64,000 nt of DNA from positions 1,480,501 through 1,544,500 of the forward strand of contig JABAKD010000014.1 of assembly GCA_012845835.1 (NCBI GenBank). The letters run 5' to 3'. Origin of the DNA: Undaria pinnatifida. Taxonomy: Eukaryota > Sar > Phaeophyceae > Laminariales > Alariaceae. This document shows, piece after piece, positions 1,606 to 29,495 of the stretch. Every line of letters starts with the position of its first letter. Positions within the stretch are counted from its first letter, which is position 1. The translations under genes were made by a program, and so were the position numbers. The notes beneath the pieces were generated by a model. That model searched no databases. It was not told the origin of the DNA and saw only the letters and a list, made by a program, of their open reading frames with translations.

Positions 1606-4600
1606 CAATGCATACCAGCATGTACAGAGTACCGGCCCTGTGCTACAAGAAACGGAGATATTACTTTTAGCCTAGATTTCATATTGAAGAACTGCTGTGG
1701 TGTGTCCTACACAACAAGCTTCATGGTTTAAACAACTAACTGCCGCCGTCAAATTTCGTATTTCCCTGCAATGTTTAGGGTGACTTATGGTGGCGCTCTT
1801 TCTTATGAGGGGCCAGTTGTGGTGCATTGAAAAATAAGCGAGCGTGAGACAACCACGAAAAAAAAACAAGAAATTCGGGTGCCGTTATATACGGAAGTCG
1901 TGCGTGGTCTAGACTAAAAGGCGCTCTGTCTCAAACAGAAGCCCAGCCTGGCTATTTTACTTACTACTATACAGTACATTGTATGTGCGTGTGTTTGTTA
2001 ACTGGTATTTCCACACCATATTTTTTACACTCGGCACAATTCAATCCTGCACAGCGTCCGAGCGGATGGCTCGTCCCAGAGCGAGAGCGACGACCCCTGT
2101 GGCAAAAAACTGACGCATGCTACGACAGAGGTAGCACTTTTTGGCTATTTTGTTTTCTGAATGGCGGGCTCCTTAACCCCTTTACAGCTGGAAACCCGTT
2201 TTGGGGACGAAATTACTTGGATATAGTATGGGGAGGGGTTCGGGGGCTCTAAAGGGGTTAAGTAACCCAGAATCGTCGGAAAAGAAATAAATAATAGGAC
2301 ATCTTTTTGGTCGTGATTCTCATTGTACACCTAGGGCATGCGTTTTTTTCATCCGGTGGCAGTTTTATTTTTCCCCAAGTCGGTTATTTTTGGAGAGATC
2401 TTGTGCTCCCAAATTGAGGAACCTCAGATAAAAAGTGGTGCACCTCTATTATCGTAGCACGCGTCAAGTGAAAAACAGACTTAGAGGTACACATTTGACA
2501 CACACACACTTTAAAGTACTTTTGTAAAAAATACGGGTGATTCGGCCACGCAATGCCGAACGAAATGAATGTGCGGGGGCGGAACATAATCATCGCGCCA
2601 GTACACCAGCATACATACGTGCAAGGTGATTTTTTGTAGAAATATATACCTTACGTACACCAATCAAATATGAATTAACTTCCGGATGGACAACAGGACT
2701 CGATCTCACTGCTCGCGTTCAATTCGTGTGCAGCAGAACAGGTATTATTCATAACAACAGTAGTATCCTAAGCAGACTACATACTACAGGACACCCATGC
2801 TTTTTGATTTGTTTATAATACAGGTCGCAGGAAGGTACACTTTCTACCGTAACGTAGACAGATCTTCTCGTGAAGATTTGTATGAACGGTAGCCGTTCCA
2901 GAGGTTTTGGCTATCTTGTATTTTTGTACTACAAGTAGTCGTGGAGTCTCCGTAGATTCTAGTGACAGAGAGGCAGGTACATGTATTCACGTTTCCCGCT
3001 GTGACAAGTAACCACTGCCGACTCTCATGTTTTGCCTACGAAGCACCAATCGTTGCCTCTAGGCACTTCTATCGTTACCGTCGCTTGCTTCGTCGTCGAA
3101 CCTTGCGCCAACCTGGCGTGCCCCCCACGCTACGCAAGACAAGAAGAGAAGTTGTTGCAAGTCGCGAGTCGAACCTGGGTTACCCCAAACCCTCAGTATT
3201 AAGAAACAGAAAGATAGGCTTACTTGCTTTAGGCTGGGTTTCTCATTTGGGAGAGAGAACGTTCCGCGCTTTCCCTTTTTAATACATGCAGTATGTAGTA
3301 TTCTTCTGCGGCTTCACCGATCATTTAAAGCAAGTATTGGATTAGATGAGGCCTCCTTCCCCAGCCGGTGGGCCTACCCATACTTCAAAGGTTTCTTATG
3401 CTCTTCATCTTGGTTACCGGACTGGGGTCGTCGTCTCACCCAGACTTTATCTAAATGATTACCATTTCGTGGCGTGCACGAGGTGAAGGACCGGCGGATG
3501 TGGTAAATCAATGCGGATTAGCCTATATTGAGTCTGCGTAGAAGCACCGTCGTTGGTTTGACACATACATGCTCCCTGCAAGAGCAGCAGCGTTCACTGT
3601 AAAATATACCTGGTATATACTACGGTACTGCTTGTTCCATATTCCAACCAGCAGCGTTATATAAGCTCGTCCCGGAGCGGGTGTTCCTGTTAGACGACTT
3701 CATCCCAAAACGCTATATATTTGCAGGCACAAAGGCGCTTCCACCAGCGCCAGCGTCCCACCCACGAAGGGGCATGCCACGGCAACTGCCGGAGCGGCCA
3801 TTGCATTGGGTCCCTAAACACGTCTACCCAAACCAGAAATGTGGGCGAGGGGTGGAGAATCACCCATATGTCCACCCACCCGCGTTCATCGGCAGAAAAA
3901 CGTGGAATCGAGGGTGGAACAGGCCGCACGCAAGCCTGGCGATGATCTAGGTGCCCGAGCCATTCTCCGCGTCGACCTACCACGAGTGTCAATACAATGC
4001 AAATCTGAATGTCAATACACAGCATCGATCGTGTGCTGGAAACGGGGGGGAATACATTTCACGCCCTTTGTGCTGCTAAACAACTAAGCGAGCGTGGAAG
4101 TGATGCTGTGTGTCCAGCCGATCCATCGAGAAAACCCGACGAGAGCGCACAGACACTAACAGCGCGACTCCGGGCCACTCCTACCTACCAGTACCTGTTA
4201 CAGCCAAATTAGGATGTAACGATTTTCTTTTTATGCTCACCATCCCATCAGTTACATCTTCGCGCGCTTTGTCAAATACTTCTCCCTCCCTAGACGTAAC
4301 TCAGACCCAGGGTCGCTAACAAGCAGGCTCTGCTACCCCCTTCCCACTACGGTACCACAACTTTATTTTTATCGCGAACATGCTTCTTTCGGCTATCATT
4401 TTTGTTCCCTCGTTGACTCGCATCGAATTTGGCCTACACTAACTCCGGTATAACGGCTCCGTGGCTTCTTGCATTCATTTCTGGAAATATCAGCCTGTCA
4501 GCGGTGCTGTTCATTCCAGGTAACCCTGTTTCAAAGGAGTAGTGTGTCCAGTACCACAGTAGCAACAAACAGTGGTGTAGCTACAGCAAGCAGTATACAG

Positions 4601-8880: not shown

Positions 8881-9263
8881 TGTTAAGGTATTATTAGTGG
8901 GGTATTTATTAGTCCGTTTGACCACTTGCCAAAGGTTAACCAATAGCTTACCCAAACTAAGCCTTATAACACTTCCCCCCCCTGAAACGGCGGGATAGCA
9001 GGTCGGCCGGATATTACGGGCGGACCTGTCAAATATATCCAAGCCGTTTCATTTCCTAGGGATACCAGGGAGAGTATTTTTCAAGTTCGACACGGGGAAA
9101 ATCTGAAAAGTTTATTATTGTGGATGGTGGGGATCGAACCCACGACCCAAAAAACCCATGGTCTGTCGACGACGCCATTTGCTAAGATTATTAGCGGGGT
9201 GTTAGTCCCTTTGACCACTTGCCAAAGGTCAACCAATAGCTTACCCAAACTAACCGTATAACA
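8881..9263 (-). mobile_element. TRIM-like miniature LTR element
   Basis: A 383-bp non-coding element with direct terminal repeats at 8881-8971 and 9180-9263. Each begins TGTTA and ends TAACA or a near match when read on the minus strand. A purine run (plus CTTCCCCCCC, 8972 on) sits just inside the 3' repeat, as a polypurine tract should. Next to the 5' repeat is a TGGCGTCGTCGAC segment and a tRNA-like arm (GTGGGTTCGATCCCCAC). The flanks GCAG and GCGG suggest a 4-bp target duplication with one change. It splits a GGGCCGCGGCCC repeat. The terminal repeats differ at several sites, so it is not young. Confidence 0.65.
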
Positions 9264-25840: not shown

Positions 25841-27579
25841 AGATTTTAGAGTTTTCGATGTGGCAAGCGCGGAGGTTTCCTAAATCCCGCGAACTTCGTC
25901 AGATAGACGACGCTCGTGGACACGGTCGACGATAGGTAATTCGCGGGCATCGACGGTGAGCCGGTCTGTGGCGAGGGGCTCCTCCTAGATCGCTCTGCTT
26001 GTCTCAGAGGGAGGCGGGGAGCCCGGGTGAAGGATTGGTTCATCGATGGAAAGCGGGAAAATAGCGAGCTGGTCTAAGTCGGTACACCAGGGAATTATGG
26101 ATGGAGGCAAACACAGCGAGGATTACTTCAATGAGAGTCAGTCCGAAAGCCGAGACGTCATGTATAATAAGACGCGGCCTGACAACAGAAACAGGCCACC
26201 GTCTTGTAGGTCTCCCTACTAAGTAGGATCCTCGACGTTCACTGGCTCGTATCCTAGAGAAGCCCGTTGCATTATTCCCGCTAGCCACGGAGGAACTGAG
26301 GCTGCCGCCCAGAGGGAACGGCAACAGAAAGCAAAACAGGATTTCCCCTTTATGGTGTTGAAACCCACACATGTGACGAGAAATTCGTTTTGGGTGCTGC
26401 AGCAGCAATGAATGGTGAACAGGTCTATGGATATCTACCGCCTGAAACAATTGAACGGTCAAACGGTCTATCGATACCTACTTTCGAAGACAAAATGTTT
26501 CGTTTCTCGGTCTCAATATCCTATCGCCCAACAGTACCGTTATTCTAATGCCTATCGATGGGTATCTGCTCAGCGATAGCTCTTGACTTTTGTGTGGCAA
26601 TACGTTATTGGCCTAACAATAGATCAGTGGACGCGGCAATCGACACTCATTGTCGGCCACAATAGATTTCTAAAAGTGTCAATCGATGCCTGTTATAAGC
26701 ATCAACAAGGCCTTCTAGTCTACTGGAATAGATCTAGAACCCTATCGATTGCCTTTGAACCTCTGTTGTGCAGGGTGTGGTGTGCATCATGCACAAGGCT
26801 CCGCATGTGTGCTGGCTGTCTCAGGCACACATGCTATTGGGAGCAATTAAGAGGCTGGGGGTTAGAGAGGATAGGCGGGAGATATCATTACACTTGTTGT
26901 CGTGGGTGTTAGGGGTGAATGCAATGTCTAGCGCATGGAAGCTGACGACGCACATGCTCCGGGAATGGGAGGAAGGTTCAGCACGTCGATTGCGCAATGT
27001 TATCATATGTAATGGTACGTGCGAACCTCGTATATGAGAGCCCGACAACAAAAACGTGCTTTTTCGTGCACTACTTTCAAAACCTCGTCAAAGTAATACG
27101 ACTTTGTTACCTGTTACGCTACTATACACAACAGACAACCTTTTGGCAGGTCTTAGACATTCCGATACACCTGCAGTGCAACCGAACGACCATGCCTGGC
27201 TCTTTAAGCAATCAGAAAATAACCATTTGAAATTGACGTGGCCGTAGCTAAAGTCGATGTAGACGACTCGCCTCTCCGGGAGGTCTGATATTACAAGCGT
27301 CGCGATATTCTGAGTATTACCACACCGACATGTATAGCATTGCTAGACTGGAGCGTATCTTGGGACAATCGACAACGGAGATGATAAAACAGCGATTTTG
27401 TCATTATGAGTAGAATATCGTCATCACGCGTTTGAGGCGTGTCATGCAAGGTAGAGATAACGTACCCGTAGCATGCATAACATATTTGGTCCTCTGGTAT
27501 TTAGGATGCGTGTGCACGTTTTGAATTCGGGGAAGCACGGTTGATAGTTCGATCTGGGTTCGAGGTTCAAGCGGTGCTC
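25841..27579. other. no gene seen
   Basis: No gene recognised. The left half is rich in ATCGAT-type motifs (26400-26780). Open frames on both strands overlap and show no family motif. Confidence 0.4.
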
Positions 27580-28470
27580 GCCCCTTGCTTCGAGCACTTC
27601 TGCCCGCTTCCTAGCTCACAACCTAAATGAGCCAAAAACACCCTTCTTGACGTCAAGAGAAACGTAACAATATTATTATGAGAAACGCGGGGAAAAGAGT
27701 TACAGGCATATGGCCCCTTGCTTCGAGCATTGCCGCCCTTCCCCCAGTGTTGTAAGTCTTAGTTTGGGTAAGCTATTGGTTAACCTTTTGCAAGTGGTCA
27801 AACGGACTAATACCCCACTAATTCCTTAACAAATGGCGTCGTCGACAGACCATGGGTTTTTGGGTCGTGGGTTCGATCCCCACCATCCACAATAATAAAC
27901 TTTTCAGATTTTCCCCAGTTCGAACTTGAAAGATACTCTCCACACAGCATACCCAAGAAATGAAAACGGCTTGGATAATTGACAGGTCTGCAGTTTTACA
28001 AGGCTTTGTTTGGGTAAGCTATTGGTTAACCTTTTGCAAGTAAGTGGTCAAAGGGACTAATACCCCACTAATGACCTTGACAAATGGCGTCGTCGGCAGA
28101 CCATGGGTTTTTGGGTCGTGGGTTCAAGCCCCACATCCACCACAATAAACTTTTTCAGACTTTCCCCATGTCGAACTTGAAAAATACTCTCCCCGGTATG
28201 CCCAGGAAATGAAACGACTTGGATATAGACAGGTCCGCCGTATATCCGGCCGACCTGCTATCCCGCCGTTTCAGGGGGGGAGAGTGTTATAAGGCTTAGT
28301 TTGGGTAAGCTATTGGTTAACCTTTTGCAAGTGGCCAAACGCACTAATACCCCACAAATTCCTTAACACCAGCTCACAAGCTAAATGAGCCACAAGCACC
28401 CTTAATGGCTTCAAGAAGAGCGCAATAATATTAAGAGACACGTGGAAAGAGTTTGAGGCATCTGTAGCGT
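27580..28470. repeat. tandem ~130-bp duplication carrying a TRIM-like insertion
   Basis: Unit 1 (27580-27713) runs GCCCCTTGCTTCGAGCA ... CTCACAACCTAAATGAGCC ... GGAAAAGAGTT. Unit 2 begins again at 27714, is cut at 27747, and resumes at 28369 with CCAGCTCACAAGCTAAATGAGCC. Unit 1 therefore serves as an in-window empty site for the insertion at 27748-28368. Confidence 0.75.
27748..28368 (+). mobile_element. TRIM-like element, LTR-internal-LTR-internal-LTR
   Basis: Three direct ~84-89-bp terminal repeats (27748-27831, 27994-28082, 28285-28368), each close to TGTTATAAGG...CCTTAACA, separate two internal parts of about 160 and 200 bp. Each internal part opens AATGGCGTCGTCG(A/G)CAGACC and soon carries GTGGGTTC-A-CCCCAC, a tRNA T-arm-like hairpin with a B-box match. 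The second internal part ends in CAGGGGGGGAGAG, a polypurine tract, directly before the last repeat. CCAG flanks both sides (27744-27747 and 28369-28372) as a 4-bp target duplication. The tandem form fits recombination between two copies. Non-coding; a moderately diverged relic. Confidence 0.75.
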
Positions 28471-29495
28471 GACTTCACCTGCTCTCAAGATACTGAATTG
28501 CAACCGTCGTCCTTGTGCACTTCATACGGCTTCTTCATAATCGGCGTCGTCGGCAGGACCAATCATTGACACATACCGTCAGTAAATGTTCAGTTTAACA
28601 CGGAAATCGCACTTCAATTGCGCAGAACTCACAACCTCTACAAAAAACGGACCAAGCACACGAAGTATTTCAAGTAACACAACATCAACGAAACTCACAC
28701 GAAATCCCAGAAAATCGCAGAAAATCGCAGAAAATCGCACGAAATACTATATTCTTGACTGCTGTCGCTGTTGTTGCCAGCTTGATTGCTGTTGCCGCTG
28801 CTACATGCTTGGGTGCTGTTGCTGCTGTCGCGCGCTCACTGCTCCTCTTCCTCAACGCATCCCCTCCACCCCCGCCCCTTGTTGATCTGATGCCCACCCT
28901 TTCTGCGGCTGGTGCAGTGCGACCCCGCTATTTGCGACTGCTGCGGTGCCCACCCCTACTGCTGCTGGTGTTGTCGCTGTAATCCCCCCCCACCCCCCCT
29001 TTCTTGCTGTGGTGCTTCGCCTTGCTGCGGTCGCTGTGGTGCGCCCGCGCTATGTGGCTACTTCGGCGCCCACCCCTGCTGCTGCTGCTGCTGCGGCGGC
29101 GGCGGCGTGCCTAACGGGTCCCAGGGCGCCAGGACGCCTGTGACAGTGAGCTGGTGGTTATCTCGCCGCCGTCCCACCTCCTGCTGATACGAACTCCCCC
29201 CATCCGCCGACTGGGGGCGCTAAGGTTCAGCTCGGGGGAAAACACGTGTATGATGCGGGGGCAGGACATGTTGCGTGGGAATGGTCTGCTCGCGGTGCCT
29301 ATTCGAGCCCGGTCCCCGCCTGGCGGCGTGTGGCCACCCCTACCCGACGTGTGACCCCCCTACCCGACCATATGTAGGCTCCGTGGTGTACCTGTGGGCC
29401 AAGCTTTATATGAACTGCTCATATCTAACGGACGTACCCAGATTGGCGAGCGTATTTCAATGCGCTCTACCGTTTGTGTAATCTGACTCTCCTCC
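28471..29495. other. no gene; CTG/CCG-rich low-complexity DNA
   Basis: The 28745-29110 stretch is made of CTG, GCTGCTG and CGGCGG steps with poly-C runs, giving Cys- or Ala-rich frames in every register. I see no gene. Confidence 0.5.

Follow-up and report, generated by a model that had tools for sequence, protein, structure and literature searches.

A TRIM family of the kelp Undaria pinnatifida with a conserved tRNA T-arm-like sequence beside its tRNA-Ser primer site

Small retrotransposons that borrow tRNA pieces

Few mini-retrotransposons are known to borrow pieces of tRNA, and the element described here, from the brown alga Undaria pinnatifida, adds a new layout to them, in which a copy of a T-arm stands beside the tRNA primer site. 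The closest known kind is Helenus/TRIMp3 (Kojima 2024, PMC10886601). In the cited parts of that paper these are TRIMs of similar size with a primer-binding site (PBS), a polypurine tract (PPT) and a tRNA-like sequence; the animal Helenus elements also make 4-bp duplications and are linked to Gypsy. Like Helenus, for which target duplications of 4 or 5 bp are given, the kelp TRIM has its PBS and PPT between the LTRs and is flanked by 4-bp duplications. The tRNA-like sequence of Helenus, with A and B boxes, lies inside the LTRs, whereas the kelp TRIM carries the T-arm and its B box alone, between the LTRs and next to the primer site. The Helenus hosts named in those parts are fungi, animals and one plant, whereas the host here is a brown alga. 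Because neither an A box nor a B box was found in its LTR, the B box being internal, we did not file the kelp TRIM as Helenus, and regard it as a TRIM with a new arrangement of the tRNA piece.

Cassandra, in the same partial source (PMC10886601), is also a TRIM with sequence borrowed from a small RNA gene, but there the LTRs contain 5S sequence, and Rfam reported no 5S match at positions 27301-28800 around the kelp element. Canonical TRIM and SMART elements (PMC10886601; tandem forms, PMC4528315) share with it the short LTRs, PBS, PPT, absence of coding capacity and tandem arrangement, whereas the cited passages describe no tRNA-like internal hairpin. In HIV-1 a tRNA-like element in the PBS region likewise places a tRNA mimic near the primer site of an RNA leader; that element, according to the cited part of PMC8473020, mimics the anticodon arm and binds LysRS, whereas the kelp sequence has the shape of a T-arm and acceptor, goes with tRNA-Ser and has a putative function. 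The bipartite primer site of Ty3 (PMC5371799, in part) is comparable in that its initiation complex involves the T and D arms of the priming tRNA, but the contacts there are made with the 5' and 3' regions of the element, with no T-arm copy in the element. The titles and abstract openings listed in literature searches gave no report of a TRIM in brown algae or of a TRIM with an internal T-arm. In the cited portion of a paper on Ectocarpus transposable elements (PMC12477816), 'trim' occurs as trimethylation or trimming only, and the LTR elements measure 3.9-14.5 kb. The Undaria genome paper, as far as the cited part goes, lists most repeats as 'unknown', at 36.1% of the genome (PMC7058681).

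The element and its copies

We analyzed a window of 64,000 nucleotides of the U. pinnatifida genome. At 27748-28368 it holds a three-LTR (tandem) copy of the TRIM family, in which three LTR-like repeats, each about 84 bp long, enclose two internal parts, all read on the plus strand. The first LTR (27748-27831, 84 bp, TGTTG...TAACA, 94% to the last LTR) is followed by a primer-binding site (27834-27848) that, apart from a mismatch at position 12, is the complement of the tRNA-Ser 3' terminus with CCA, and by an acceptor/T-arm-like hairpin of 10 bp with one C.C mismatch (27861-27889), in which the T-arm occupies 27867-27883 and the B box 27870-27880. Repeat comparison placed the middle LTR at 27994-28082, its start being approximate, and the last LTR, of 84 bp, at 28285-28368. 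Between them lie a second primer-binding site (28085-28099), whose 15 nt are a perfect complement of the tRNA-Ser 3' end with CCA, and a second hairpin unit (28112-28142), which consists of the acceptor/T-arm-like hairpin (28112-28139; T-arm 28118-28134, B box 28121-28131) and CCA (28140-28142). The polypurine tract AGGGGGGGAGAG (28273-28284) stands directly before the last LTR. The first internal part is truncated at its 3' side, matching only over positions 3-164 of 207, and lacks a purine tract. The sequence CCAG is found at both outer edges as the target-site duplication (27744-27747 and 28369-28372), and an empty site, where the target sequence is repeated in tandem but lacks the insert, lies at 27580-27713 (+); its alignment to the joined flanks, with one CCAG removed, scored 144, and the best of 200 shuffles scored 36. 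The element is under 1 kb, encodes no mobility proteins and has a longest ATG frame of 47 aa.

An earlier note, made from the letters of the window alone, had called the element TRIM-like on the strength of direct repeats of about 84 bp, a purine tract before the last of them, a CCAG duplication at both edges, an empty site in the window and a T-arm motif in each internal part, which reads GTGGGTTC-R-A-NN-CCCAC at 27867-27883 and 28118-28134. Each of these features was confirmed. Together with the tRNA-Ser primer site and thousands of dispersed sites in the genome, they make the assignment of the family to TRIMs near certain.

A second copy of the family lies on the minus strand at 8881-9263, with the 5' LTR starting at 9263, the primer site at 9177-9163, the T-arm at 9143-9127 and the 3' LTR at 8971-8881. 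Just downstream of the first element, 28542-28559 (+) reads CGGCGTCGTCGGCAGGAC, one base off the full primer site, without LTR or T-arm.

We then searched the genome (511,146,479 bases in 68 contigs) with the element as query and obtained at least 54 matches, 40 of 4,244 candidates having been scored. Forty separate loci were read (L001 and L009-L047; L002-L008 repeat seven of these and were left out of the counts). They contain 36 complete elements, namely 26 single LTR-internal-LTR units of about 372 bp and 10 three-LTR forms, and further chains that are broken or longer. The LTRs of the family measure 84 bp and form paired direct repeats, TGTTA...TAACA, with TG...CA ends. Exact 4-bp duplications flank 26 of the 36 complete elements and 5- or 6-bp duplications flank none, against 5 of 1,260 pairings when left and right flanks of different copies were combined. 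Paired LTRs and target duplications in genome copies, one of two points that the earlier note had named in advance as decisive, were thus found. Within the 26 single-unit copies the two LTRs of an element show 91.8-100% identity (median 97.6%), and many insertions therefore look young. One locus (L043, C27:18410865-18413151) is a tandem array of several LTR-internal units, in which two LTRs break off at position 80, with the same sequence coming next in both.

The primer site and the B box (GGTTCRANNCC), 10-40 nt apart, occur together at 3,261 sites genome-wide, and the reversed-pattern control gave 0. There were no matches in viral contigs and one in prokaryote contigs (L133), which we dismissed as chance: the contig is 65% GC, neither LTR is matched and the identity to the internal part is confined to 15 nt of the primer site.

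The probable primer tRNA and candidate partner elements

The primer site of the family, TGGCGTCGTCG(G/A)CAG, lies two bases 3' of the LTR, as a PBS just after the 5' LTR does in TRIMs, and complements the 3' end of host tRNA-Ser plus CCA. A tRNA T-arm pattern ending in the complement of the primer site occurs at 71 genome sites (reversed control, 2); among the 30 of these that were read, ARAGORN called several tRNA-Ser. A cluster on contig C24 (L103-L107) matches tRNA-Ser over 81 nt, without an encoded CCA, and ends in GCAGGTTCGAGTCCTGCCGACGACG. Of 70 distinct internal starts, at least 12 have the full 18-nt complement of tRNA-Ser, GGCAGGAC, and the commonest allele, ACAGAC (43 of 70), gives an 11-nt match and then a mismatch at position 12. 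PBS-like 15-mers number 5,705 in the genome, compared with 5 for the reversed control.

In ten loci antisense tRNA-Ser sequence continues far beyond 18 nt after the primer site, six of them on the LTR-A side (L080, L086, L089, L094, L099 and L101) and four on the side of a second LTR family, LTR-B (L081, L082, L097 and L100). The matches end at tRNA positions 24-29 in five, at 37 in one and at 1-12 in four, as if reverse transcriptase had read through into the primer tRNA. L078 and L079, which are the same place on contig C1, hold two overlapping tRNA-Ser matches on opposite strands in an inverted arrangement.

L128, which belongs to a sample of 20 loci chosen by primer site, carries the same 18 nt of primer site, and about 5 kb downstream of them lies a Ty3/Gypsy-like pol (Pfam RVT_1, E 2.8e-10; RT_RNaseH_2, E 4e-21). 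Between the two come first a frame with a zinc knuckle (PF00098, at E 0.0021 short of the Pfam cut-off) and then a frame with LLDTGS, as in aspartic proteases, which was read by eye and has no Pfam support. In the part read, the protease-like frame precedes the reverse transcriptase with no integrase between them, which we take to be the Ty3/Gypsy order. The parts read, which leave a gap of 2 kb in the middle, showed neither LTRs nor an integrase, and we propose this element as a candidate partner of the TRIM.

LTR-B has an LTR of about 270 bp and uses the same tRNA-Ser primer site (L109, L125, L127, L097, L100 and L002). In L109, CACC was seen by eye at either flank. Elements with both LTRs placed (L097, L100, L109, and L125 with L129) span only about 0.8-1.5 kb, and we rejected LTR-B as the autonomous partner. 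Its LTR holds GCTCAATTGGCAGA, like a tRNA D-arm, in most copies shown; Rfam reported no tRNA in L109, L125 and L127.

The T-arm: conservation, structure and possible roles

Counted from the first base of the primer site, the T-arm (GTGGG-TTCRANN-CCCAC) begins 33 nt downstream in both copies within 27748-28368, which leaves eighteen nt between it and the 15-nt site, and 34 nt downstream in the third window copy. We gathered 93 copies from the loci by requiring a downstream motif and the core of the primer site, with at most 2 mismatches, but not the B box; 87 of them have an exact B box, and the six misses include an antisense tRNA (L080) and a copy cut short before the T-arm (L095). A further 20 loci, from the start of contig C1, were chosen by primer site alone. 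An exact B box followed 18 of their 28 primer sites. The other ten are five sites of other families (L109, L113, L125, L127 and L128), three that are cut short or followed by other sequence (L110, L114 and L116), one with a loop insertion (L120) and one with a mutated T-arm (L123).

Conservation was measured in 26 copies not chosen by similarity, L123 having been dropped as it lacks the downstream motif. The 14 T-arm positions that are fixed in tRNAs are 98.1% conserved, compared with 83.9% for the LTR, 89.9% for the spacer and 88.4% for the part downstream of the T-arm, and 24 of the 26 copies keep the exact B box. Conservation of the T-arm across copies, the other point named beforehand, therefore held as well. 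The three least conserved of the 17 T-arm positions correspond to tRNA positions 57, 59 and 60, which are the positions left free in the T-loop of tRNAs. Three variable positions would fall there at random with a chance of 1 in 680, a figure that serves as a guide only, since subfamilies are not independent and position 57 lies in a CpG. Stem positions outside the B box are also conserved. These data suggest that the T-arm is likely under constraint.

We also looked for a tRNA from which the T-arm could derive. Two acceptor-pair patterns gave one site each, at the same place, where by eye two T-arm parts face each other, and this candidate was rejected. A pattern of an A box with the same T-arm has 22 genome sites (reversed control, 0), and a host tRNA with the T-arm of the TRIM may exist.

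The T-arm lies in a predicted hairpin of about 10 bp, in which UGGGU/AUCCA lengthens the T-stem and a single C is bulged or mismatched. In the window copies 12-13 nt separate the 15-nt primer site from the start of this hairpin. RNA folding gave the T-stem in 6 of 6 segments and the outer stem in 5 of 6. At 292 other TTCRA sites of the window both stems were found in none and the T-stem only in 4. One allele, represented by 48 of 70 copies, has CCA directly after the hairpin in 39 of the 48, like the end of a tRNA. Folding energies were no better than those of shuffles (z -0.40 to 0.68).

Stem covariation was considered as support for an RNA-level role and rejected. On alignment A1, standard pairs fill 97.3% of pair cells, barely above the 97.0% of shuffles (16 of 500 reach it), with slid controls at 43-69%, and one of ten pairs changed on both sides, which 90 of 500 shuffles reach. 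For pair 50:64, outside the B box, copies with an exact primer site and B box were counted genome-wide: 2,824 have T-A, 81 have T with a base other than A and 48 have a base other than T. None of these 48 restores a standard pair and 46 keep A64. As most copies are dead after insertion, this missing repair of the stem is weak evidence, but it is still not support.

Box weights were derived from 26 of 27 distinct ARAGORN tRNA-like sequences of this genome, a few of which may be element-borne copies or organelle genes. The B boxes of the three window copies score 17.85, 18.06 and 17.85, within the range of the genome tRNAs (10.5-19.5), and at most one of 125,796 other window positions on both strands reaches such a score. 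Upstream of these B boxes, the best A boxes in the three copies are at chance (P 0.65, 0.45 and 0.09). T-runs end Pol III transcription. Of 89 copies, 82 have at least five consecutive T in the stretch from primer site to B box, and 86 have TTTT soon after the B box. Since T-runs precede the B box and the A boxes do not exceed chance, Pol III is unlikely to transcribe the element as a whole. The primer-site sequence TGGCGTCGTCGG resembles, with one mismatch, what we take to be the A-box consensus; it is the complement of tRNA-Ser and scores at chance, and we did not accept it as an A box.

The reading we favor, and hold tentatively, is that the TRIM, itself non-coding, depends for its copying on LTR-retrotransposon machinery acting in trans, most probably of the Ty3/Gypsy type. 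Transcripts arising in the LTR would be reverse-transcribed with host tRNA-Ser as primer and then integrated with 4-bp duplications. Instead of serving as a Pol III promoter, the T-arm would form a hairpin in the RNA leader that resembles the acceptor/T-arm half of a tRNA, and would most likely be a cis signal in priming or packaging that might, for example, engage the primer tRNA or a tRNA-binding protein. What inclines us to action at the RNA level is that an A box is lacking, that T-runs are present, that the T-arm stands next to the primer site and that the outer stem positions are conserved; two of the 28 sampled primer sites (L117 and L121), which join the end of the unrelated LTR-B to a T-arm internal part, also count in its favor. 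Against it stand the candidate Gypsy partner, which has no T-arm right after its primer site, the sister elements with antisense tRNA-Ser in that place, and the G57-to-A changes, which could be CpG decay. Possibly, though we think this unlikely, the T-arm is inert: a fragment from the 3' side of a tRNA, comprising T-arm and CCA, would have been picked up in a single template-switching event and carried along ever since as a passenger. The CCA found after so many T-arms, the tolerance for other sequence beside the primer site, antisense tRNA-Ser included, and a fold that is not unusually stable would fit such a fragment; a passenger should nevertheless drift evenly, whereas in the copies collected by primer site 14 of the 17 positions are conserved at 0.986, like the primer site at 0.977, and the other three average 0.58.

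Constraint could instead act on DNA. We judge it rather improbable that the T-arm is a stand-alone B box that binds TFIIIC, as a partial Pol III promoter or a chromatin/TFIIIC site aiding the element, on the model of the TRIMp3 elements in the cited parts of PMC10886601 or of extra TFIIIC sites. The tRNA-grade score, variability that falls on the free positions of GGTTCRANNCC and the missing stem compensation all agree with DNA-level constraint; the chance-level A boxes of the window copies, the T-runs ahead of the B box and the conserved stem positions outside it do not. The earlier note had gone further and seen tRNA-type boxes, a mix of TRIM and SINE. The B box of that claim stands, as it is tRNA-grade, conserved and between LTRs; the second box does not. 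A tRNA-type SINE has A and B boxes at its 5' end and no LTRs, while this element has LTRs, and a complete SINE-like Pol III promoter transcribing the whole TRIM seems very improbable to us. Rfam does read the LTR start and T-arm as tmRNA-like, the only match up to E 10 in 27301-28800 (E 1.8e-4, 17.1 bits vs a cut-off of 47), and 8 of 11 further loci, those with the T-arm, gave similar matches (best 12.6-20.3 bits, E down to 5.8e-5, below the same cut-off); T-runs nonetheless lie inside the would-be transcript, and ARAGORN found no tRNA in the window. To return to the favored RNA hairpin, we can imagine, as a doubtful conjecture, that the element carries a spare top half of a tRNA, whose T-arm would dock on the free D-loop of the primer tRNA-Ser, or attract a tRNA-binding protein, once the primer has unfolded its own T-arm, so that the primer would be captured by tRNA mimicry and not by extra base pairing.

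Should the T-arm have a part in priming, a type of tRNA mimic so far discussed for retroviral leaders would occur in a retrotransposon of very small size, whose thousands of natural variants would allow its rules to be read. Should it serve as a B box, the family would have spread potential TFIIIC sites in their thousands through the kelp genome. Either way, tRNA-bearing TRIMs would extend to brown algae.

A split tRNA, with its 5' half in the LTR and its 3' half internal, was also considered and set aside: the tmRNA-like alignments rest mainly on the T-arm. The LTR sequence TAAGCTATTGG was likewise rejected as a D-arm, because whichever A box scores best there does so at chance level. Directly after the hairpins, at 27894-27904 and 28144-28155, AATAAA is followed by a T-run, an arrangement that is conserved in the family and resembles the 3' ends of some SINEs as described in the cited part of PMC8466645.
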